From Verrucomicrobiia bacterium (lineage in GTDB: Bacteria > Verrucomicrobiota > Verrucomicrobiia > Limisphaerales > DSYF01), in NCBI GenBank assembly GCA_035765895.1, contig DASTWL010000068.1, positions 1-64,000 of the forward strand: a DNA stretch of 64,000 bases, read 5' to 3'. Positions 4,233 through 16,633 of this stretch are shown here, one piece after another. The notes under the pieces were generated by a model. It was not told where the DNA came from. It was given only the letters and a program-made list of their open reading frames with translations, and ran no database searches. The translations under genes were made by a program, and so were the position numbers. Position 1 is the first letter of the stretch, and each line of letters starts with the position of its first letter.

Positions 4233-4249
4233 CCGGACGAGTCTTGCTA

Positions 4250-4286
4250 GGCCCGGGACTGGCGTGCGCCGGTCCCGGGCTTTTTT
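4250..4286 (+). terminator. Rho-independent terminator of the repeat-protein gene
   Basis: A perfect 9-bp stem (GCCCGGGAC / GTCCCGGGC, arms 4251-4259 and 4272-4280) with a loop of about 12 bases is followed directly by six T residues. It lies 18 bases after the stop codon of the large repeat protein. Confidence 0.9.
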
Positions 4287-4384
4287 ATTGCAGAGGCGCA
4301 GCCTTTCTCCGGGAGCCCGAACATCAGCAACCAACGAACGGCCGCCGGGCATTTCCTGGGAGGTGAATGTCTTCCTCGTTCCGT

Positions 4385-4588
4385 TCAGTCACTCAAGCTG
4401 GCTCGGAGGGTGAACCGGTGTTTTTTCACTTCTTCGCCACCCGGCAGCAGCCGCCAAAGATAGGGCGGCATCGTCGACAACTGCACCGCCTCGATTTCCT
4501 CCATGCCGAGCAGGAACGCCTTGCAGAGGCGGTGCATCCCATCAAGGACGACTCCGACCGGAGACATGAGATGGGAAGGCGAAATAGT
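4385..4588 (-). pseudogene. Remnant of a ParB/sulfiredoxin-like protein
   Basis: The readable segment contains VVLDGMHRLCKAFLLGMEEI, which matches the DG(M/R)HRL core of small ParB-like proteins, followed by EAVQL. The frame is closed by TGA just upstream of position 4588. The sequence immediately before it is protein-like only in another frame (DVNYFAFPSH), so a frameshift or 5' truncation is likely. It lies about 47 bases downstream of the ExK protein gene on the same strand and may once have been the third gene of that operon. A small intact ORF (60 aa from 4567) remains, but the family normally has more N-terminal sequence. Function is not assignable beyond the fold hint. Confidence 0.4.
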
Positions 4589-4635
4589 TCACATCTAAGG
4601 AAGATCGATTCCGTCTAGTTGCAGCGTGGATTGTA

Positions 4636-5085
4636 TCAAAATGAAATGCTCCACGTTGGATAAATGCCGCGCGCTTTCGCAAAAATCTCGTTTAATTGGA
4701 GTTCCAAGTGTGCGCCAGAAACTGTGTTAACGAAGATAAAGCGAAACTGCGCTTTGAGATTCTGTGCAACCAGCACTTCGGCAGCAGTCAATCCGAAGAA
4801 ATAGCCGCGAAAGTCGGCGGCCATGTCCTTCTTCGTGGACTTGATTTCGCACAGCAGCAACTTGCTCAAATGGGTCTCTACTTCATTCACCGAATCCAAG
4901 TTCACAGGCTCCGTTAATCGAATTACGTCAAAGGCCTTACCATAGACAATCATGTCCCGTTTCGCGAAGGCCACGACGATATTCCTCTTCTGCCTGACAG
5001 TGGGAACCAGATAACCAAGTCCTTTCGATGCCAACAGTAATGCGGCCTTTCCTGCCGTGGCGCTCCCAGAATCAAGATTCTTCAC
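4636..5085 (-). CDS. Hypothetical protein with ExK motif, possible PD-(D/E)XK nuclease-like partner of XRE regulator
   Basis: A 149-residue soluble protein with a GTG start. Its stop-start junction with the upstream XRE gene is a 4-base GTGA overlap, indicating translational coupling. The middle shows a hydrophobic strand ending in LLLCEIKSTKK (E80, K82), with acidic residues upstream (D64, E69, E71), then the segment DFRGYFFGLTAAEVLVAQ and a strand FRFIFVN. This resembles the ExK half of PD-(D/E)XK folds, but the first catalytic acid cannot be fixed by eye. The codon use and base composition are more AT-rich than neighbours. I recall similar XRE plus ExK pairs as uncharacterised proteins; nuclease activity is an inference only. 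Confidence 0.7.
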   Translation of the reverse strand: MKNLDSGSATAGKAALLLASKGLGYLVPTVRQKRNIVVAFAKRDMIVYGKAFDVIRLTEPVNLDSVNEVETHLSKLLLCEIKSTKKDMAADFRGYFFGLTAAEVLVAQNLKAQFRFIFVNTVSGAHLELQLNEIFAKARGIYPTWSISF

Positions 5086-5348
5086 TTGGCACCTACCTTC
5101 TTCGCCTCAGGAAGTCTCTCTTCAAACTTCTTTGCGAACGAAACGAGGGTGGCGCCTAGGGATTGGCAAACGTTTCGCAGTTCAATCACGTCGAGCCGTC
5201 TCTCACCGGTTTCGTATTTGCTCACAAAACTCTGGGGCATTCCCAGAGTCTCGGACAATTGAACTTGGGTGAGGCCCTTCTGTGTGCGAAGTTCTCGCAG
5301 AAGCTCCCGAAAGACCGCATACTCAGTTGTGAAAACGGATTTTGACAC
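5082..5348 (-). CDS. XRE-family helix-turn-helix regulator
   Basis: An 88-residue Cro/CI-type DNA-binding protein starting with GTG at 5348. The five-helix HTH spans about residues 12-70: FRELLRELRTQKGLTQVQLS, then the recognition helix region MPQSFVSKYETGERRLD. It is the size of restriction-modification controller (C) proteins and single-domain repressors. It is the first gene of a two-gene unit with the ExK protein and is divergent from the BsuBI/PstI-type endonuclease, with only 45 bp between start codons. It may therefore control both directions. No inducer-binding domain is present. Confidence 0.9.
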   Translation of the reverse strand: MSKSVFTTEYAVFRELLRELRTQKGLTQVQLSETLGMPQSFVSKYETGERRLDVIELRNVCQSLGATLVSFAKKFEERLPEAKKVGAK

Positions 5349-5393
5349 TTGCCAATAGTCAATCCGATTTTAGGATAACCCAAAACAGGATAA
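5338..5393. promoter_or_regulatory. Divergent control region with repeats between XRE gene and endonuclease
   Basis: The short gap holds a direct repeat AGGATAA at 5372-5378 and 5387-5393 (15-base period), the second abutting the endonuclease ATG. An interrupted inverted repeat CGGATT (5338-5343) / AATCCG (5361-5366) spans the GTG start of the XRE gene, and ATCC/GGAT flanks 5362-5376. These are candidate XRE operator half-sites. No convincing sigma-70 promoter pair could be fixed for either direction. Confidence 0.4.
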
Positions 5394-6008
5394 ATGAGCC
5401 GGACCAGACAGCACCAAACACGCACCGATCGTTTCCACGGCTCGTCCTTAGGAGTTGAAGTGCTCGCCCGTTCCTTAGGTGTCCCTCGACGTGAAGTGGA
5501 AGCCAAGCGCTGGCGCATGCCAGACGGATCGTTCTTCTACCATCCGCGATACCGCTGGTGCCTGCTTATCAAGGCCATCATCGAGCACTTCTGCCCCGCC
5601 TTCGCCCCCGGCGGGGTGGTCCTCTACATCGGCGACACCGAAAACAAGTTCGTCCATCTGGAAACCGGAGGTTTGGCCACGCTCGGCGTCTCCCTGGATT
5701 CCGCCGCCAAGATTCCCGATGTCATCGTTCACTTCCGTGCCAAGAACTGGCTCCTGCTCATCGAAGCGGTTACCAGCGCCGGCCCGGTGGACAGCAAGCG
5801 CCGCAAAGAACTCAAAGACCTGTTCGCTGGCTGTAAGGCCGGTCTTGTCTTCGTGACTGCCTTCGAGAACCGCCGCACCATGCAGACCTTCGTCTCGCAG
5901 ATTGCTTGGGAATCTGAAGTCTGGATCGCCGAAGATCCCGACCACATGATTCACTTCAACGGTGAGCGTTTCCTCGGTCCCTATCCGGACGTAATCGGAA
6001 AAAGTTGA
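5394..6008 (+). CDS. BsuBI/PstI-type restriction endonuclease, C-terminal catalytic domain protein
   Basis: A 204-residue protein matching the C-terminal catalytic domain of BsuBI/PstI type II endonucleases, which cut at palindromic DNA sites. Family signatures are SFFYHPRYRW, the PDVIVHF strand (D109), NWLLLIEAVTSAGPVDSKRR (E124 and K135 as the D...E-x-K-like set) and AWESEVWIAEDPDHMIHFNG near the end. BsuBI and PstI are about 320 residues, so the N-terminal region is missing. Here only about 30 residues precede the LARSLGVP segment that opens the conserved domain. No adenine methyltransferase gene occurs within the window. The AGGATAA direct repeat runs into the start codon. It may be a decayed or solitary endonuclease, or use a partner encoded elsewhere. 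Confidence 0.85.
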   Translation: MSRTRQHQTRTDRFHGSSLGVEVLARSLGVPRREVEAKRWRMPDGSFFYHPRYRWCLLIKAIIEHFCPAFAPGGVVLYIGDTENKFVHLETGGLATLGVSLDSAAKIPDVIVHFRAKNWLLLIEAVTSAGPVDSKRRKELKDLFAGCKAGLVFVTAFENRRTMQTFVSQIAWESEVWIAEDPDHMIHFNGERFLGPYPDVIGKS

Positions 6009-6126: not shown

Positions 6127-7193
6127 TCAGTAGGAGGTTTTCAGCCAGTTGGTTTTGGCCCAGGTGGGCTGGCCGAGAATCGCGGGAGCGGTGGGCGGCG
6201 GGGTAACGACGTTGCCGCGCAGCAGCCGGTAAAAGCGTTGTGGCTCGGAGAGGAGCAACGGATTCGTGCAGGCGAAGTTGTCGCCGGCATCGAAATGATT
6301 GGTGGCGATGGCCGGCCATTGCGCCAGCGGCGCGGCGACGTTGGTGCTCGACAACACCTGATAAACGCCGCTCGTGGCGCCGTTGGTTCCCCGCAACACG
6401 ATGCCGTCCGGGCCGGCGCTGGCCTCGGTGATGCGCGGTTCGTGCGATCCCGTGTCATCGACTGCGGGCGTCACATCGGCCCAGGTCGTCCCCACGCGCA
6501 GCGTGTCGAAGTTCCATGTGTCGTAGCCGGCGCTGGACTTCAGATAAAGATTCTGGAGGTTGACCGCATCGGTCCCGCCCGTCTGACTGGCGTCCGGCAC
6601 GGCCGGTTCGCTGCCGCCGGGTGTAGGATTGATGAACAGGCTCACCCCGTCGTCGCCCGTTCCGGGGTTGAACGCATACTTCACCACGATGAATTGCGTG
6701 ACGTTGGTGGCGAGCACGTTCGCGGCATAAACCGCGGACGCGCCGGTTTTCCGGATGGCGAGCTGATAGCCGTTGCCGTTGAGACTGAAATACAACGCCA
6801 GGGCGTCGCTGCTGCCGTTGGGTGAGGTGGTGCCGGAGGGCAACAGGCCCGTCAGGTAACCGCTGCCGGTGGCAGCGCGGTGCATTGCAGCAGGAAAGAG
6901 TAGTAAATATTGCCGCAGCTGACGCTGCTGGCGTCAAATGGCCGGCAGTTCGAACCGCCGCTCGTGCCGGCGATGCTGACCAGGTTGCCCGCGGTCGCGG
7001 GCAGTTTGAGCGCGGGTTGGGTCAGATTACCGCTGGCGACTTTGACCTGCGACGAACTGTTGCTCCACGGCGCCACCGAGCCGACGTTTGCGCCCGGCGC
7101 GGCGTTGGTGATGGCGTCCTCCATCGGCAACGCCGCGTGCAGGAGCTGTGCGGTGACAACGACCAGGCTGATGATGGCGGCGCGATGCTTCAG
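6127..7193 (-). pseudogene. Secreted LamG-like/FYRL-tail protein, frame disrupted
   Basis: Two overlapping reading frames together form one protein. The N-terminal frame (to about 6860) carries a signal peptide (KHRAAIISLVVVTAQLLHAA) only if translation begins at CTG 7193, because an in-frame TGA precedes it; the first standard start is TTG at 7130. The second frame (from about 6885) continues GSGYLTGLLPSGT, SLFINPTPGG, and LRVGTTWADV. This is typical of verrucomicrobial secreted proteins with a jelly-roll domain, ending in a QRFYRLL tail. Inserting one base near CTGCC/ACC (about 6876-6882) restores about 355 residues. Rare start plus frameshift means it is broken, or the sequence contains an error. 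Confidence 0.6.
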
Positions 7194-8982: not shown

Positions 8983-10128
8983 TTACGGCTTCGGGGACAC
9001 CGTGCAATCCACCAGTTTGACGTTCGCATCTTTCACCACGTCGGGCTGGGTGAGGCCGGCGAAGGTTGAGTGGTGGAGCCGCACGTCGCTGATTTCCGCC
9101 GCGGGAAAGCCCTGCACGTCCAGCACGCGCCGGGCGTTGGCCACGGTCAGGTTTTCCATCGTCACGTGGCGCACAACCGGGCGTTGCGGACCGTTGGCGC
9201 CTTCTTCGTAGAGAAAATCAATCTGCAACACCGCGTCGCCGACGGTGCCGACCTTCACGTTGCGGACGAACACGTTTTCCACCGTGCCGCCGCGGACGGC
9301 GTTGGACTTGAAGCGCAGCACGCGGTCGAGATTCGGGCTGTCCATCGTGCAATTCTCCACAAACACGTTCCGGCAGCCGCCGGAAATCTCGCTGCCAATG
9401 GTCACGCCGCCGTGGCCGTCCTTCATGGTGCAGCCGCGCACGACGATATTCTCCGCGGGGGCGCCCAGGCGCCGGCCATCCTCGTTGCGGCCGGACTTGA
9501 TGGCGATGCAGTCGTCGCCCGTGTCGAACACCGTGTTCTCAATCAGCACGTCCCGGCAGGCCTCGGGATCACATCCGTCGTTGTTGGGGCCGTGGCTGAC
9601 GATTTGCACGCCGCGCACAATGACGTTTGTGGACAACACCGGGTGCAGTTCCCACATGGGCGAACGCCGGATGCGCACGCCTTCGATCAGCACGTTCCGG
9701 CAGCGGAAGGGCTCGATGAAACTGGGCCGCAGGTAGTCGCCGTCGCCGAACGTCCGCTGGGCCACGGGCGTGCCTTCCGCAACCATTTTCACCAGGCGTT
9801 GGCGGGCGGCGTCCTGTTTGGGCTGGCCGCTGGTCCAGCCGTATTCCTTTTTGCCCTTCCAGGGCCACCAATGCGTTTCGTCGGCCTGACCATCGAGCAC
9901 GCCGTCGCCGGTGATGGCGATGTCCTGCGCCTCGAAAGCGTAAATGAGCGGCGAGTAGTTGAGGCACTCCATGCCTTCAAACCACGTGCGCACGGCCGGC
10001 AGGCAGGCGGAGGGATCGGTCTTGAACTTCAGCGTCGCCCCGCCTTCGAGGTGCAATTCAATCCGGCTTTGCAGGTTAATCGGGCCGGTCAGGTATTCGC
10101 CGGCTGGCACGATGACGCGCCCGCCGCC
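8983..10128 (-). CDS. GH28 polygalacturonase-like module, downstream part of a GH105-GH28 fusion
   Basis: Right-handed beta-helix glycoside hydrolase family 28, which hydrolyses galacturonan or rhamnogalacturonan. Signatures in order: RVIVPAGEYLTGPINL, the catalytic NNDGCDPE and DTGDDCIAIKSGRN, GHGGVTIGSE, and RFKSN. The open frame extends to 10272, but residues before about 10128 are not GH28-like. The missing N-terminal strand (REFSIADFGATGNGQTDS) is found in the overlapping upstream frame of the GH105 gene. One extra base near 10118-10128 would join them into a protein of about 858 residues. As read here the module has no start codon or signal peptide of its own. Confidence 0.85.
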   Translation of the reverse strand, partial: GGGRVIVPAGEYLTGPINLQSRIELHLEGGATLKFKTDPSACLPAVRTWFEGMECLNYSPLIYAFEAQDIAITGDGVLDGQADETHWWPWKGKKEYGWTSGQPKQDAARQRLVKMVAEGTPVAQRTFGDGDYLRPSFIEPFRCRNVLIEGVRIRRSPMWELHPVLSTNVIVRGVQIVSHGPNNDGCDPEACRDVLIENTVFDTGDDCIAIKSGRNEDGRRLGAPAENIVVRGCTMKDGHGGVTIGSEISGGCRNVFVENCTMDSPNLDRVLRFKSNAVRGGTVENVFVRNVKVGTVGDAVLQIDFLYEEGANGPQRPVVRHVTMENLTVANARRVLDVQGFPAAEISDVRLHHSTFAGLTQPDVVKDANVKLVDCTVSPKP

Positions 10129-11558
10129 GTGGCTGCCGCGATGGCCCGGGCGATGGCCGCGCTGCTGTCCGTCTGGCCGTTGCCCGTGGCGCCGAAATCG
10201 GCAATGGAAAATTCCCGCGCTGGAATGACTGGCGGCCGGAGGCGCGCGAGCAGTGCGGGCAATTCCGACCACTCCGGCGCGCCGGATTGCGGTCCGGTCG
10301 CGGTGGCGGTTGACGCGTGTTCCGCCCGCAACGGCAGGTCGATCAGTCGTTGCAATTCGAGACCGGCCAGAATGAACGGGCCGACGCCCTTGAGGTCGTT
10401 GTCAACCACCGGTTCGCGCAGGTAATACGCGTAGGAACCGTCGCGGCCGTAGCCAAGCCCGGCCACGGCGCAGCAATGCGTCAACGAGATTTGGCCGTTC
10501 CCGTCATCGCGCACAAACTCGTGGATGAGGCCGGCGTAGCCTTTGACGATGGCGGGCACGTAAGTGCGCGGGAGATAGCCGCGGTTGACCGCTTTCGCGA
10601 GTGAATAGACGAACATGCTCGACGCCGTTGCTTCGAGGTAATTGCCCGGGCGGCCGCCCTGGTCGAGCACCTGCCACCACAAGCCAGTTGCTGGATCCTG
10701 CCATTTCACAATGCCGCGAGCGGTCTTTTGGAGCATGGCGAGAATCACCGCGCGGCCCGGATGATTCTTCGGCAGATAATCGAGCACATCGACCTGCGCC
10801 ATGGCGAACCAGCCCAGCCCGCGTCCCCAGAAATTCGACGACGTGCCCGTGGTTGGGTTGGCCCATTCCTGCACGTGTTTCGCGTCCCAGCCGTGATAAT
10901 AAAGGCCCGTGCGGGCGTCGTAGAGGTGTGCGTCGGCCAGTTGGAACTGCTTCACCACGTCGTCGAAGCCGGCGGGTTCGTTGAACTGGCGCGCGTATTC
11001 CGCGTAAAACGGGGCGGCCATGTAAAGGCCGTCGAGCCACATCTGCTCCGGATACCGTTCCTTGTGCCAGAAACCGCCCTCGCTGGTGCGCGGCTGCGTG
11101 GTCAATTGCAGGCGCAAGGTCGCGGCGCACTTGCGGTAGCGCGGTTCATGGGTGAGCTGCCACAAGGCCAGCACGGTCTTGCCGGGATTGACGGCGTCGA
11201 GCTGATACTCGCCCGGTTTGTAACCGCGGATATTGCCGTCGTCGGTGATGAACGATCCGATGGCATTTTCGGTGAACGCGACGTAGCCGGGCGTCGGCAC
11301 AGCGCGGTTCAATTTCAGGAGCGACAGCGTGAAGAGGCCGGCCGTGTAATCCCACTTGGCCTTGCCGTCCGCGCGCCACGCGAGTTTGTCGTCGCGCCGC
11401 GTCATTTCCGAATCCGCCATGCGGACGGACCACTGCAACGGCGTGGCGCCGTTGAAGGTGGCCGGTGTGGAACGGGATTCAATTGTGCGGCACGCGGGGA
11501 GCAGAGGGAGCGTCAGCAGGCCCGCGGCGATTTTCAGGGACAGGCGGAAGGACTTCAT
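10089..11558 (-). CDS. GH105 unsaturated rhamnogalacturonyl hydrolase lipoprotein, fused to start of GH28
   Basis: The first ~430 residues are a GH88/GH105 alpha/alpha-barrel that removes unsaturated uronic acids left by pectate or rhamnogalacturonan lyases. Features include MADSEM, EGGFWHKERYPEQMWLDGL (catalytic Asp region), SSNFWGRGLGWFAMA and SSMFVYSLAKAVNRGYL. Start is set at MKSFRLSLKI (11558). The signal ends in LPLLPAC, a plausible lipobox, so an outer-membrane-anchored lipoprotein is likely. After a Pro/Ala linker the sequence enters the GH28 N-terminus (REFSIADFG) and then stops out of frame at TGA 10089. The continuation lies in the overlapping frame of the GH28 feature. Confidence 0.88.
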   Translation of the reverse strand: MKSFRLSLKIAAGLLTLPLLPACRTIESRSTPATFNGATPLQWSVRMADSEMTRRDDKLAWRADGKAKWDYTAGLFTLSLLKLNRAVPTPGYVAFTENAIGSFITDDGNIRGYKPGEYQLDAVNPGKTVLALWQLTHEPRYRKCAATLRLQLTTQPRTSEGGFWHKERYPEQMWLDGLYMAAPFYAEYARQFNEPAGFDDVVKQFQLADAHLYDARTGLYYHGWDAKHVQEWANPTTGTSSNFWGRGLGWFAMAQVDVLDYLPKNHPGRAVILAMLQKTARGIVKWQDPATGLWWQVLDQGGRPGNYLEATASSMFVYSLAKAVNRGYLPRTYVPAIVKGYAGLIHEFVRDDGNGQISLTHCCAVAGLGYGRDGSYAYYLREPVVDNDLKGVGPFILAGLELQRLIDLPLRAEHASTATATGPQSGAPEWSELPALLARLRPPVIPAREFSIADFGATGNGQTDSSAAIARAIAAATAAGASSCQPANT

Positions 11559-11681
11559 GGCGCAATCTCGTATCATCAGGAATGGTTTTAATCCTGACGC
11601 CGTTCCCGCGCGCCTGTCGAGCCCGCGCGCGGTTGAAATTGCGCCTTTGCCCCGCGAAATTGTGCACCGCGCTGGCTTGGT

Positions 11682-12800
11682 TCAGGGCACGATGGGCGCG
11701 GTCTTGAGCACCGCGTCGAAGGCCGGTTTGGGCCGGCCCTGGCGGTCGAACAGGAGCGGATACGAAGTGCGGCCGGGAATGGGCCAGTTGTTGAGCCACG
11801 AATCGCCATCCGTCACGCCCCAGAACGTCACGCGTGCCAGCGTGCCGCGGTGTTCGCGATACACCGTGAAGATGTCGGCGTAACGTTGCGCAAGCGCTTG
11901 TTGCACGTGGTCGGGCAGGCCGTTGGTGTAGGGATTCAACGTCGGATTACCCGTTTGGCGGAGGGAAACTTCCGCGGTGCGGTTCGCGCCGCGGCCCGGC
12001 AGCACGTCCACGTCGAGTTCGGTGACCATGACCTTGATGCCGAGCCGGCCAAACGCGGTCAGCATGTCGTTCACCTGCTGCGGTGTCGGCCAGTCGAGCT
12101 TGATATGCTCCTGCGTGCCGATGCCCGCCACGGGCACACCGGCCGCCTGCAACTGTTTGATGAGCGCGACGGCGCCGTCGCGTTTGGTCGCGTTCTCCAG
12201 TGAGAAATCGTTGTAATACAGTTCCGCCGACGGGTCGGCTTCGTGGGCATACGCGAAGGCCTTCTCGATGTAGTCGTCGCCGATGATGCGCTGCCACGGC
12301 GACTGCCGCCGTGTGCCGTCCTCGTTCAACGCCTCGTTCACCACGTCCCAGCCTTTGATGCGGCCCCGGTAGCGCCCCACGACGGTGTGAATGTGGTCCC
12401 GCATGCGCGCCAGCAACGCCGCCCGGGTCATCGGCCGCCCCTGGTCGTCCTGGAACACCCAGGCCGGCGTCTGGTTGTGCCAGACCAACGTGTGCCCCAC
12501 GATGAACATGCCGTATTTCTCGCCGAAGGCGACGTAACGGTCCGCCGGTCCGAAGTCGTAGCGGTCCGGCGCGGGATGCACGTGCTCCCATTTCAGCACG
12601 TTTTCCGAGGTGGTGGCGTTGAACTGCTGTCGGATGAGCTCGAGACGCGCGGAATTCGTTTCGGCAAACTGGGATTCGTTCAACGCCGCACCGATGAGGA
12701 AGTCATCCTTGAACGCGGTCTTCAACGCCGGTTGGGCGGCGGCACAGCCCGTCAGCGCCGCGAGGGCGAGCGGGACGAGCAGCGAGGTGTGACGTTTCAT
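11682..12800 (-). CDS. GH10 endo-1,4-beta-xylanase, lipoprotein
   Basis: A 372-residue GH10 enzyme that cuts the xylan backbone. Both catalytic glutamates are visible: acid/base in WDVVNEALNE and nucleophile in VMVTELDVD. FIVGHTLVWHNQTPAWVF and VTFWGVTDGDSWLN are also typical of the family. Start ATG 12800 is preferred because an AGGGAG ribosome site lies 6 bases before it; an upstream TTG overlapping the transporter stop is less likely. The signal peptide ends with a lipobox (ALTGC), predicting membrane anchoring. It follows the GPH symporter gene directly and belongs to the same operon as GH3. Confidence 0.95.
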   Translation of the reverse strand: MKRHTSLLVPLALAALTGCAAAQPALKTAFKDDFLIGAALNESQFAETNSARLELIRQQFNATTSENVLKWEHVHPAPDRYDFGPADRYVAFGEKYGMFIVGHTLVWHNQTPAWVFQDDQGRPMTRAALLARMRDHIHTVVGRYRGRIKGWDVVNEALNEDGTRRQSPWQRIIGDDYIEKAFAYAHEADPSAELYYNDFSLENATKRDGAVALIKQLQAAGVPVAGIGTQEHIKLDWPTPQQVNDMLTAFGRLGIKVMVTELDVDVLPGRGANRTAEVSLRQTGNPTLNPYTNGLPDHVQQALAQRYADIFTVYREHRGTLARVTFWGVTDGDSWLNNWPIPGRTSYPLLFDRQGRPKPAFDAVLKTAPIVP

Positions 12801-12811
12801 GGGCGCTCCCT

Positions 12812-14296
12812 TCAAGTCGTCGCAAACCGGCGGCGGCGTTCGGTTAATTCATCCTGGATCTGGAGGTTCAACTGCTTGGTGATGCCGTAGCAAAGCAGGC
12901 AGACAATCACGATGCCGAAGAAGAGGGCCGGATAAACGCTGATGGTCATCCGGATGCCCTGCAACGCCGCGGGCGTCTGCGCCACATTGGGCACGTAGCC
13001 ATAACCGGACAGCAACCAGCCGGCGATGGCACCGCCCAGGCTCAAGCCGACTTTCAGCGCAAAGATGATCGTGGCGTAAATCACGCCGGTAGTGCGCCGG
13101 CCGGTTTTCCATTCCGCGTAATCCACCACGTCGGCGAACATCGCCCAGATGAGCGGGATCGTCGGCGCGTAGCTCAGGGCGCGCAGCCACTCGAGCACGA
13201 ACGTCGCGCCAATCGCGTTCGCCGGCAGGAAGATGAAGCCCGCCATGAACAGCGTCGTCACCGTGAAGCCCGTTACGGCCACGGCCTTCTTGCCGAACCG
13301 GATGGAAAGCCACGTCGAGCACAGCACGCCGAGCACGGTGACAAATTGCGACGACATGTTGAGCAGGCTGAAGCCAACGGCGCCGACGTTCGACTGGTCC
13401 GCGTTGACGACCAGCCCGAAGGTGTTCAGCAGATAATGCCAGGCGCCGCCGGGGCCGCCGGCATTGGTCAGTCCGAGGGTTTGCAGCACGTCCAGCATCC
13501 GCGCCTTGTCCACGTAGTATTGGAAATAATAGAACATCGTGCCGCCGCGCATCGCGAGGACGATGAAATGCGCGAGCGTCAAAATGAACATGGCGATCCA
13601 CGGGCCCGTCTTGAGCAGGTTGCCGAAATCGCGCTTGGGATCGGACTTCTGCTCCGGCGGCGGCGTGATGCGCTCCCGCGTGGTCAGGAAGGTGATGAGG
13701 AACAGCCCCACGCAGATCACAGCCCACAGGCCCATCGTCATCTGCCAGCCCTTGGCGTTGTTGCCCTCGCCGAATTTGGCGACGAGCGGCAGGGTGAAAC
13801 CGCCCACGATGAGCTGCGCCACCATCGCCGCCACGAAACGGAACGACGACAGGCTGGTGCGTTCGTTCACGTCCCCGGTCATCACGCCCGTCATGGCCGA
13901 ATAGGGCGTGTTGTTCATCGAATACAATGTCATGAGCAGGATGTTCGTGGCGGCGGCCCAGACGATTTTCCCCGTCGAACCAAAGCCCGGCACCGTGTAG
14001 GCCAGCACCGTGATGACGCCCCACGGCAGCGCGGTCCACAGGATCCACGGGCGGAATTTGCCCCAGCGCGTCTGCGTGCGGTCGGCGATGACGCCCATCA
14101 GCGGGTCGAAGAAGCCGTCCCAGAGCCGCGCGAGCAGCAGCAGGGTGCCGGCCGCCGAGGCCGTGATGCCGAGGGTGTCGGTGTAAAAGTTGAGCTGGAA
14201 CAGGATCATCGTCATGAAGACGAAGTTCGCCGCGCCGTCGCCCAGGCTGTAACCGGCCTTTTCGGTGAAGGAGAGTTTTTGAATGCGGTCGCTCAT
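12812..14296 (-). CDS. GPH-family (MelB/XylP-like) sugar:cation symporter
   Basis: A 494-residue, about 12-helix MFS protein of the glycoside-pentoside-hexuronide family, which imports oligosaccharides with Na+ or H+. The N-terminal signature GYSLGDGAANFVF and the cytoplasmic loop DRTQTRWGKFRPWILW are diagnostic, as is PTIPLIWAMFADVVDYAEWK in the second half. It sits between GH3 (12 bases upstream) and GH10, so xylo-oligosaccharides or xylosides are the likely cargo. It is somewhat longer than E. coli MelB because of an extended loop around residues 275-310. Confidence 0.92.
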   Translation of the reverse strand: MSDRIQKLSFTEKAGYSLGDGAANFVFMTMILFQLNFYTDTLGITASAAGTLLLLARLWDGFFDPLMGVIADRTQTRWGKFRPWILWTALPWGVITVLAYTVPGFGSTGKIVWAAATNILLMTLYSMNNTPYSAMTGVMTGDVNERTSLSSFRFVAAMVAQLIVGGFTLPLVAKFGEGNNAKGWQMTMGLWAVICVGLFLITFLTTRERITPPPEQKSDPKRDFGNLLKTGPWIAMFILTLAHFIVLAMRGGTMFYYFQYYVDKARMLDVLQTLGLTNAGGPGGAWHYLLNTFGLVVNADQSNVGAVGFSLLNMSSQFVTVLGVLCSTWLSIRFGKKAVAVTGFTVTTLFMAGFIFLPANAIGATFVLEWLRALSYAPTIPLIWAMFADVVDYAEWKTGRRTTGVIYATIIFALKVGLSLGGAIAGWLLSGYGYVPNVAQTPAALQGIRMTISVYPALFFGIVIVCLLCYGITKQLNLQIQDELTERRRRFATT

Positions 14297-14308
14297 GCGG
14301 GGAGGGGT

Positions 14309-16633
14309 CTATTTCGTTACGGTCAACGTGAGTGGGTGGAGATCCGTGTCGCGTGAGGACGTGCCGATGAGGATTTTAAAGTCACCCGGCTCAACGACGT
14401 ATTTCATGTTCACGTTGTAAAACGCCAGTGACGCCGGGGTGATGTCGAGCGCCACGGTCTGGGATTCGCCGGGTTGCAGCGCCACTTTTTTGAAGCCCTT
14501 CAACTCCTTCACCGGCCGCGTCACTGAGCTGACGCAGTCGCGGATGTAAAGCTGCACCACCTCGGTGCCGGCGCGCGGGCCGGTGTTCGTCACGTCCACC
14601 AGCACGCGGGTGGCGCCGTTGGGCTTGATGCGCTTTTTCGTCAGCCGGGCGTTGGTCAGGGCAAAAGTCGTGTAGCTGAGCCCGAGCCCGAACGGGAACA
14701 GCGGCGTGGCCTCGTCCCACAAATAACCGCGGCGCGCCGAGGGCTTGTGGTTGTAGAACACGGGCAGCTGGCCGACCGAGCGCGGAATGCTGATGGGCAG
14801 CTTGCCGCCCGGGTTGAAGTCGCCGAACAAGACGTCCGCCACCGCGTGCCCGCATTCCTGGCCGAGATACCAGCACTCGAAAATGACCGGCACCTTCCGG
14901 GCGACGTTGTTGATCGCGAGGGGCCGGCCGTTGAAGAGCAGGGCGATGACCGGCCTGCCCGTCGCCACCAGCGCGTCCACCAGTTCATCCTGACGCCCGA
15001 TCAAATCGAGACTGGTGCGGTCGCCCTGATGTTTGAGCGACCACGCTTCGCGTGAGGTTTGTTCGTTGCCGCCGATGGCGAGGATGATGACGTCAGCCTG
15101 CCGGGCCACTTTGACCGCCTCGGCAATCTGGCGGCGGTCCTCGGCTGGATCGCTGGGAATCACCTCATCCTGCTGCCACGAACCACCCACAGTGATCCGG
15201 CAGCCTTCCGCGTGCAGCACCTGCACTTGCGGGCCCACGCGGGCGCGGATGCCGTCGAGCACGGTGACGTTGTGTTTGGGCGCGCCGCTGTAACCGCCGA
15301 GCAGCGGCCGGTGCGCGTTCGGGCCGATGACGGCAATCGTCCGGAGCGTTTTGAGGTCCAGCGGCGCAAGGTGATTTTCGTTTTTGAGCAGGGTGATGGT
15401 TTCCCGCGCGGCCTGGCGGGCCAGCGCCCGGTGTTCGTCGCAGCCGACCACCCGTTCGGCTTCGGCCGGATCCACGTAAGGATCGTCGAACAGGCCGAGC
15501 TTGAATTTCCACAACAGCATCGGCGCGATGAGTTCGTCGAGCTGCTTTTCCTTCAGCGCGCCCCGGCGCACGAGTTCGGCCAGATGCAGATAACAGTCGG
15601 GCTCGGGCAGCTCGAGGTTGACGCCGGCCTCGACCGCCAGCCGGCAGGCTTCCTTCTTGTCGTGGGCGACCGCGTGGCCGTGCGTGTCAGGCCGGTGGCC
15701 CAGTTCCCAGATCGCGTAATAATCCGAAACGACGAAGCCTTGGAATCCCCATTCCTGGCGCAGCACGTCACGGAGCAACCACCGGTTCGCGTGGGAGGGC
15801 ACGCCGTCAATTTCGTTGTAGCTGGCCATGACGCTGATGGCGCCGGCCTGCTGGAGGCAGTCCTTGAACGGATGCAGAAAGGTTTCCCGCAGCACCCGTT
15901 CGGACACGTTCACGGGCGCGCAATTCTGGCCAGACTCCGGCTGGCTGTGCGCGGCAAAATGTTTGAGCGTGGCGATGACGCGGCGTTTGTCGCGAAACGA
16001 GCGGTCGCCCTGAAAGCCCCGCACGGCGGCGACGCCGAGTTGCGTGTTGAGAAACGGATCTTCGCCGTAGGTCTCTTCGACGCGGCCCCAACGCGGGTCG
16101 CGCGCCACGTCCACCACGGGCGTCAACGCCTGGTGTGTGCCGCGCACCCGGGCCTCGTAGGCGGTCATCGTGTAGAGCGCTTCCACCAGCGCCGGATTGA
16201 ACGTGGCGCCGAGTCCGATGGGCTGGGGAAAACTCGTGGCGTCGCGCGCGGCGTGCCCGTGGAGGCATTCCTCGTGGAAAATGACCGGAATACCGAGGCG
16301 GGATTCTTCATGAAAGAAACGCTGGATGGCATTGGTCAGTTCGGCCATCTGCCGAGCCGTTCGCCCGAGCCAGGGCGTCGCGGCCGGCGCTCCGGCGTCG
16401 CTCGGCCGGCCCACCTGGCCGAGTCCGTGGCCGGACTTGAAGGCGGCCCGGGCTTTGGCGGGGTCGAAATTGCCCGCGGCATCGACGAGCTTTTGCGCCT
16501 TCTCCTGCCATACACACATCATCTGCGCCGCCTTTTCCGCCAGCGTCATGCGGGCGAGCAGGTCGCGCACCCGCCTTTCGGCCGGGAGTTGGGGGTTTTG
16601 ATAAGCGGGGGCGGGTGAAAGCTTTTTGGCCAT
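14309..16633 (-). CDS. GH3 beta-glycosidase (beta-xylosidase/beta-glucosidase)
   Basis: A 774-residue three-domain GH3 enzyme. The TIM barrel includes HEECLHGHAARDATSFPQPI, VARDPRWGRVEETYGEDPFL and the nucleophile region GFVVSDYYAIWEL. An alpha/beta sandwich follows (ITLLKNENHLAPLDLKTLRT, IGPNAHRPLLGGYSG), then a C-terminal fibronectin-III-like domain. No signal peptide is evident, so it probably acts in the cytoplasm or by another export route on imported xylo-oligosaccharides. It is the first gene of the operon GH3 - symporter - GH10 - GH105/GH28 - DUF1080. The HECLHG set is frequent in xylosidase-type members, but specificity is not certain. Confidence 0.93.
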   Translation of the reverse strand: MAKKLSPAPAYQNPQLPAERRVRDLLARMTLAEKAAQMMCVWQEKAQKLVDAAGNFDPAKARAAFKSGHGLGQVGRPSDAGAPAATPWLGRTARQMAELTNAIQRFFHEESRLGIPVIFHEECLHGHAARDATSFPQPIGLGATFNPALVEALYTMTAYEARVRGTHQALTPVVDVARDPRWGRVEETYGEDPFLNTQLGVAAVRGFQGDRSFRDKRRVIATLKHFAAHSQPESGQNCAPVNVSERVLRETFLHPFKDCLQQAGAISVMASYNEIDGVPSHANRWLLRDVLRQEWGFQGFVVSDYYAIWELGHRPDTHGHAVAHDKKEACRLAVEAGVNLELPEPDCYLHLAELVRRGALKEKQLDELIAPMLLWKFKLGLFDDPYVDPAEAERVVGCDEHRALARQAARETITLLKNENHLAPLDLKTLRTIAVIGPNAHRPLLGGYSGAPKHNVTVLDGIRARVGPQVQVLHAEGCRITVGGSWQQDEVIPSDPAEDRRQIAEAVKVARQADVIILAIGGNEQTSREAWSLKHQGDRTSLDLIGRQDELVDALVATGRPVIALLFNGRPLAINNVARKVPVIFECWYLGQECGHAVADVLFGDFNPGGKLPISIPRSVGQLPVFYNHKPSARRGYLWDEATPLFPFGLGLSYTTFALTNARLTKKRIKPNGATRVLVDVTNTGPRAGTEVVQLYIRDCVSSVTRPVKELKGFKKVALQPGESQTVALDITPASLAFYNVNMKYVVEPGDFKILIGTSSRDTDLHPLTLTVTK

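Follow-up and report, generated by a model that had tools for sequence, protein, structure and literature searches.

The closest described relatives of the locus studied here are the type II restriction-modification (R-M) systems of the BsuBI/PstI/SdaI kind, in which a PF07669-type methyltransferase (M) accompanies an endonuclease (R) made up of a PF17728 recognition domain (HTH) and a PF06616 catalytic domain. A PstI enzyme without its methylase is expected to be toxic, whereas an R protein without its recognition domain need not be, and methylase-less type II endonucleases are usually dismissed as fragments or puzzles. Solitary restriction endonucleases, i.e. genes without a cognate methylase, are nonetheless known; in the survey of Ershova et al. 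(2012, PMC3488263) the enzymes that were at least 20% shorter than their homologues (99 of 272) were set aside as probable fragments. Two further groups share features with the locus: the type II R-M systems controlled by a C protein of the XRE type, and the PD-(D/E)XK nucleases such as the SPARDA nuclease domain, Hjc and RecU.

The locus lies in a window (the whole stretch of DNA analysed) of 64,000 nucleotides, and its features are collected in Table 1. A sequence-only reading had described it as a defence-like island of an endonuclease gene (RE), a divergent XRE regulator and a coupled protein with an ExK motif (EXK), in a less GC-rich segment beside a ParB-like remnant. These elements are all there: GC is 0.51 within the segment and 0.64 in the surroundings, EXK overlaps XRE by 4 nt and is translationally coupled to it, RE is divergent to the XRE-EXK pair, and the ParB-like ORF is a fragment, a 128-aa homologue in a relative matching its residues 2-35 only. 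What escaped the reading is that the three genes belong to a conserved cassette replacing parts of both M and R; the M stub and the operator-like motif were overlooked.

Table 1. Features of the locus, with positions in the window.
Feature	Position	Strand	Basis
ParB-like 3' gene fragment, 60 aa, adjoining the M stub	4385-4567	-	without Pfam match
M stub, 14 codons of a PstI-like methyltransferase, with in-frame stop	4582-4623	+	tblastn
EXK, 149-aa D53...E80xK82 protein, probable PD-(D/E)XK fold	4636-5085	-	motif and AF2 model
XRE/HTH_3 regulator, 88 aa; probable repressor for the divergent promoters	5082-5348	-	Pfam HTH_3, E=2e-12
Operator-like site AACCCAAAACAGGATA, 16 bp	5377-5392	+	conservation across lineages
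BsuBI/PstI-type endonuclease RE, 204 aa	5394-6008	+	PF06616 profile match
New RE N-terminus, about 56 residues, where the PF17728 HTH domain stood	5394-5563	+	comparison with canonical R
RE catalytic domain, PF06616, with D109 and E124 conserved	5564-6008	+	nearest relatives are canonical full-length REs

An imperfect 18-nt inverted repeat (window 4559-4576/6105-6122) brackets the conserved block. We rejected the pair as terminal inverted repeats: it is absent in the relatives, and a rough estimate gives about one pair of this kind by chance alone. Farther along the minus strand, an apparent frameshift at 6127-7130 splits a secreted-type protein into the ORFs 6127-6885 and 6852-7130, and the genes at 8983-16633, adjoining the island, look by eye like genes for plant-polysaccharide degradation and uptake (glycoside hydrolases, transporter).

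The assignment of RE to the BsuBI/PstI endonucleases is well founded (PF06616, E=1.1e-54; SdaI, 2ixs, E=3.6e-46). The match to the PF06616 profile begins only at profile position 20, and the PF17728 recognition domain, which the canonical R of locus L042 carries at E=8e-41, is missing from the window RE. In other words, the canonical full-length protein has both domains and the window protein has PF06616 alone. The earlier remark that the enzyme is shorter than BsuBI and PstI is therefore true, but the protein is not merely short: it is a recombinant without PF17728 that retains the catalytic half of a BsuBI/PstI enzyme. Its N-terminus of about 56 residues is found only in the cassette-bearing loci and in locus L041. 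As to the proposed catalytic residues, D109 and E124 are conserved, while K135 is a glutamate in SdaI, so homology gives K135 no support. The AF2 model of RE (pLDDT 50) is too poor for a judgement of the active site and was set aside.

The segment 4385-6008 contains no complete methylase. A tblastn search of window 4234-4650 with the canonical M of L042 found K*FTSKEDRFRLVA (E=0.002), which corresponds to M residues 377-390 with an in-frame stop and has the place and strand that M has in the relatives L035-L038. A deletion has probably joined two truncated genes here, the ParB-like ORF and M. Elsewhere in the genome, which is 96% complete, there is no PstI-like M, the best match having 28% identity (E=6e-4). 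Two DNA methylases with Eco57I-type domains (C34 and C80) were considered as the methylase of RE and rejected, being other enzymes located in other systems. The claimed lack of a methyltransferase is thus borne out, and a methylase elsewhere, one of the explanations offered for it, finds no backing in the genome; decay after a transfer, another of these, does apply to the methylase itself, of which a stub with a stop is left here and a truncated gene stands at the same place in relatives.

The trio of RE, XRE and EXK is not peculiar to the window. With the block 4580-5995, blastn finds 76-82% nucleotide identity in six other genomes (L035-L040), and in all seven close loci, i.e. these six and the window, the three genes are intact and open. 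Besides the window, the trio lies inside PstI-like M-R operons at six close and four more distant loci, so the search for conserved neighbours that the sequence-only reading had proposed gives 11 loci in all. M is complete at none of them. In L035, L036 and L038 M precedes the trio and its homology ends at residues 388-401 of 494; it is frameshifted in L037 (possibly an assembly error) and present only as pieces in L039 and L040. The more distant loci (L129-L132) form a second lineage with the order M, EXK, XRE, mini-RE, in which EXK is 54-57% identical and RE has a short N-terminus differing from the window-type one. Here M breaks off at residue 310 or at about residue 456, or else is left only as a remnant; the L129 and L130 copies, which reach about residue 456, are nearly complete. 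A third set has EXK-XRE next to a PstI-like RE that is full-length but diverged (L127), or among other genes (L101, L128). Intact canonical M-R operons are found at L042 and L046. The sequence-only reading had named two observations that would speak against it, a complete methylase beside the island in relatives and RE homologues always devoid of XRE/ExK neighbours; what we find is that no complete M adjoins the trio at any of the 11 loci and that homologues with XRE/EXK neighbours occur. The trio is not obligatory, since L041 has kept RE with XRE and EXK missing, L131 has its catalytic E changed to Q, and L102 and L128 have EXK or EXK-XRE without a mini-RE.

Judged by its features, the window unit falls outside the BsuBI/PstI R-M systems, since it lacks two that define them, PF17728 and the cognate methyltransferase; it is, however, derived from such a system. 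The likeness lies in the catalytic domain and in the truncated M beside the trio in relatives, and the difference in the want of a complete M at 11 loci, the R protein without PF17728 and the EXK-XRE pair between M and R.

The catalytic domain of RE is 80-90% identical to canonical Verrucomicrobia REs. Measured by synonymous difference, the catalytic domain nearest to that of each of the seven close loci belongs to a canonical full-length RE and not to a fellow member, the two nearest being almost tied in the case of the window. In a 50-row tree of the catalytic domain the seven members require seven changes and their monophyly is rejected (delta lnL 65, AU p=0.0034); a tree of M residues 21-385 likewise rejects a single origin of the close loci (AU p=0.024). 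Since the flanks on both sides go back to several origins, whereas EXK, XRE and the new N-terminus form one family, the cassette has evidently joined different canonical operons repeatedly. The route would most simply be homologous recombination, with exchange within M and within the catalytic part of R.

Signs of other means of mobility were sought. No integrase or transposase accompanies the cassette. Searches of plasmids found no cassette DNA, those of phage records no EXK, and those of viral contigs nothing related to EXK, to RE or to the cassette; the plasmid-borne BsuBI/PstI REs among the matches listed are canonical only. An empty-site comparison with genomes of the same genus or family gave no usable flanking match.

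Several further observations concern the wider group of PstI-like loci. Another kind of methylase-less mini-RE, in which an in-frame fusion joins the first ~30-40 M codons to the catalytic domain of R, occurs in L077 (5986-6582), L079 (5872-6468), L080 (5818-6462), L083 (5872-6468) and L088 (5899-6312). Four of these five fusions are open, dN/dS is about 0.14-0.27 in their C-terminal half, and those included in the tree (L077, L079 and L080 only) form one clade. In L042 (2822-4024) and L084 (5565-5885) the sequence immediately upstream of the PstI-like operon, or of what remains of it, resembles by eye a type I HsdM gene at its 3' end, which suggests that the PstI-like operon was inserted beside or into a type I R-M locus. 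The genes downstream of RE vary (L042 6668-9211, L083 6465-8186, L092 6138-6581, L036 2826-4274, L037 3848-5908, L041 6569-9265) and look defence-like by eye, with TIR-like domains, an AAA ATPase, a reverse transcriptase and SIR2-like genes; because they both differ and look defence-like, the 3' end of RE borders variable defence cargo.

Between XRE and RE lies the motif AACCCAAAACAGGATA, the last base of which is one before the RE start codon. Its core is kept in all three EXK-XRE lineages, and in L127, L128 and L101 it takes the form of the near-palindrome AACCCAAATTGGGATA. The motif is, with at most one mismatch allowed, the sole match in the 4.6-Mb genome, and a longer form, AGGATAACCC-AAAAC-AGGATA at 5372-5392, has 0 occurrences in shuffled sequences. 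We regard AACCCAAAACAGGATA as the obvious candidate for an XRE operator. The small XRE gene beside RE and the conserved, putatively regulatory motif at the RE start recall the C-protein systems; here, however, XRE is divergent from R and drives EXK instead of the restriction or modification gene, and no methylase exists against which a delay could be timed. The similarity of XRE to HipB-type antitoxins is sub-threshold only.

EXK matches no Pfam or NCBIfam family. Its D53, E80 and K82 are invariant across 11 homologues, and its AF2 model has a pLDDT of 82. Foldseek matches to the model are weak (E>0.06) and mostly to PD-(D/E)XK folds, and in VIA-align the SPARDA nuclease domains, Hjc and RecU lead (Z 6.8 to 4.8). 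These structural matches are consistent with a PD-(D/E)XK fold, short of proof, and we consider the fold probable. EXK shares with the known nucleases the predicted fold and the D...ExK motif, but the resemblance is distant and structural only (Z up to 6.8), there is no common sequence family, and the nuclease role is a prediction. An order-wide search found EXK homologues in 13 of 320 genomes. On alphaproteobacterial plasmids, EXK homologues have M-R and Mod-Res genes as neighbours: very distant ones stand beside an M-R pair in Sphingomonas and beside a methyltransferase-helicase pair in Agrobacterium vitis, and for this reason the family appears to be R-M-associated. A C-terminal fragment of EXK is also seen in L133 (6652-6786); immediately downstream of it lies a canonical PstI-like M-R operon that is complete.

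Selection was assessed by dN/dS (Nei-Gojobori) among the seven close loci, at dS values mostly of 0.3-2.5. The ratios are 0.02-0.07 for EXK, 0.05-0.21 for XRE, 0.11-0.47 for the RE N-terminus (57 codons) and 0.03-0.19 for the RE catalytic domain, the low values of the latter being partly inherited via recombination with working REs. The N-terminus shows a nonsynonymous deficit in all four pairs tested (Fisher p 9e-4 to 2e-8). Purifying selection, strong in the seven close loci, acts on EXK, XRE and RE alike, and none of the relatives that keep the trio has a complete M. This favours a different role, the last of the explanations that the sequence-only reading had offered. The window EXK evolves a little faster than its sister sequences (pN 0.302 vs 0.266-0.276), so a recent relaxation in the window genome is possible.

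Our best explanation, to which we would give a little less than an even chance, is that the locus is a methylase-independent, XRE-controlled two-nuclease module, its function being deduced from its parts. The cassette, with EXK and XRE on one strand and the new RE start on the other, fills the middle of an M-R operon, where it has replaced M residues ~391-494 together with the R recognition domain, leaving the catalytic domain with the N-terminus of about 56 aa. In the window, M was later deleted to the 14-codon stub. XRE may keep the expression of RE and EXK low by binding the conserved motif beside the RE start. RE, lacking a recognition domain, would no longer cut the PstI-type sites of the host and so would need no methylase, and EXK could assist it against invading DNA, as a second nuclease or as a subunit for targeting. 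What triggers the module and what it acts on are the least certain points of the proposal. Some members (L129/L130, with M nearly complete) may still be methylase-protected.

The main rival is recent decay of the window copy: the cassette would have damaged the operon, M was deleted, and the three genes of the trio have so far escaped disruption in this genome. The M stub with its stop, the truncated ParB-like gene abutting it, the slight acceleration of the window EXK and the many M-R fusions and fragments at other loci agree with this, and in neutral simulations all three ORFs stay open in 38% of cases at a divergence of 0.02 and in 9% at 0.05. At 0.1, however, the figure falls to 1.3%; moreover, the trio is intact in relatives at dS 0.3-2.5 while M decays, and the operator-like motif is intact in the window itself. 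We hold such a dying remnant to be unlikely, if still a serious contender. The repeated recombination into different canonical operons, the loss of recognition parts from both M and R and the presence of EXK-XRE in other defence contexts could also mean that EXK-XRE is a selfish or anti-restriction element, which disarms resident R-M operons by this loss, the mini-RE being either an accident of its entry or an effector in modified form. This seems improbable to us, as the new RE N-terminus is under selection, i.e. RE seems to be used, and neither an integrase or transposase nor copies on plasmids or viral contigs were found. That the unit is a working R-M system, protected by a methylase in trans or by an unrelated enzyme of the genome, is very improbable indeed: the genome does have the two Eco57I-type methylases, and L129/L130 do keep a nearly complete M beside the trio, but the former belong to other systems, the best PstI-like match is as distant as given above, and for an RE without recognition domain the old specificity cannot be assumed.

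The two-nuclease module resembles the solitary endonucleases (PMC3488263) in that a cognate methylase is lacking; it differs in that selection has preserved the truncated RE, together with its partner genes. By the length criterion of Ershova et al. (PMC3488263), a unit like the window trio would have been set aside. No description of the RE/XRE/EXK arrangement was found in the open literature, most subscription journals lying outside the search; the parts are known and their combination is new.

A broader statement, which we advance tentatively and think rather less likely than not, is that a recombining cassette repeatedly turns PstI-like R-M operons into two-nuclease systems independent of a methylase. 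M and R would lose their recognition parts in the same swap, so that host DNA would be spared without methylation. The origin of the unit can be traced via the intact operons, and a single replacement that took the M parts and the R recognition domain together would avoid self-restriction. The locus thus offers a testable case of an R-M system becoming a different nuclease system, and it yields a compact operon, a candidate operator and, in EXK, an uncharacterised nuclease-like family that appears to be associated with R-M genes.
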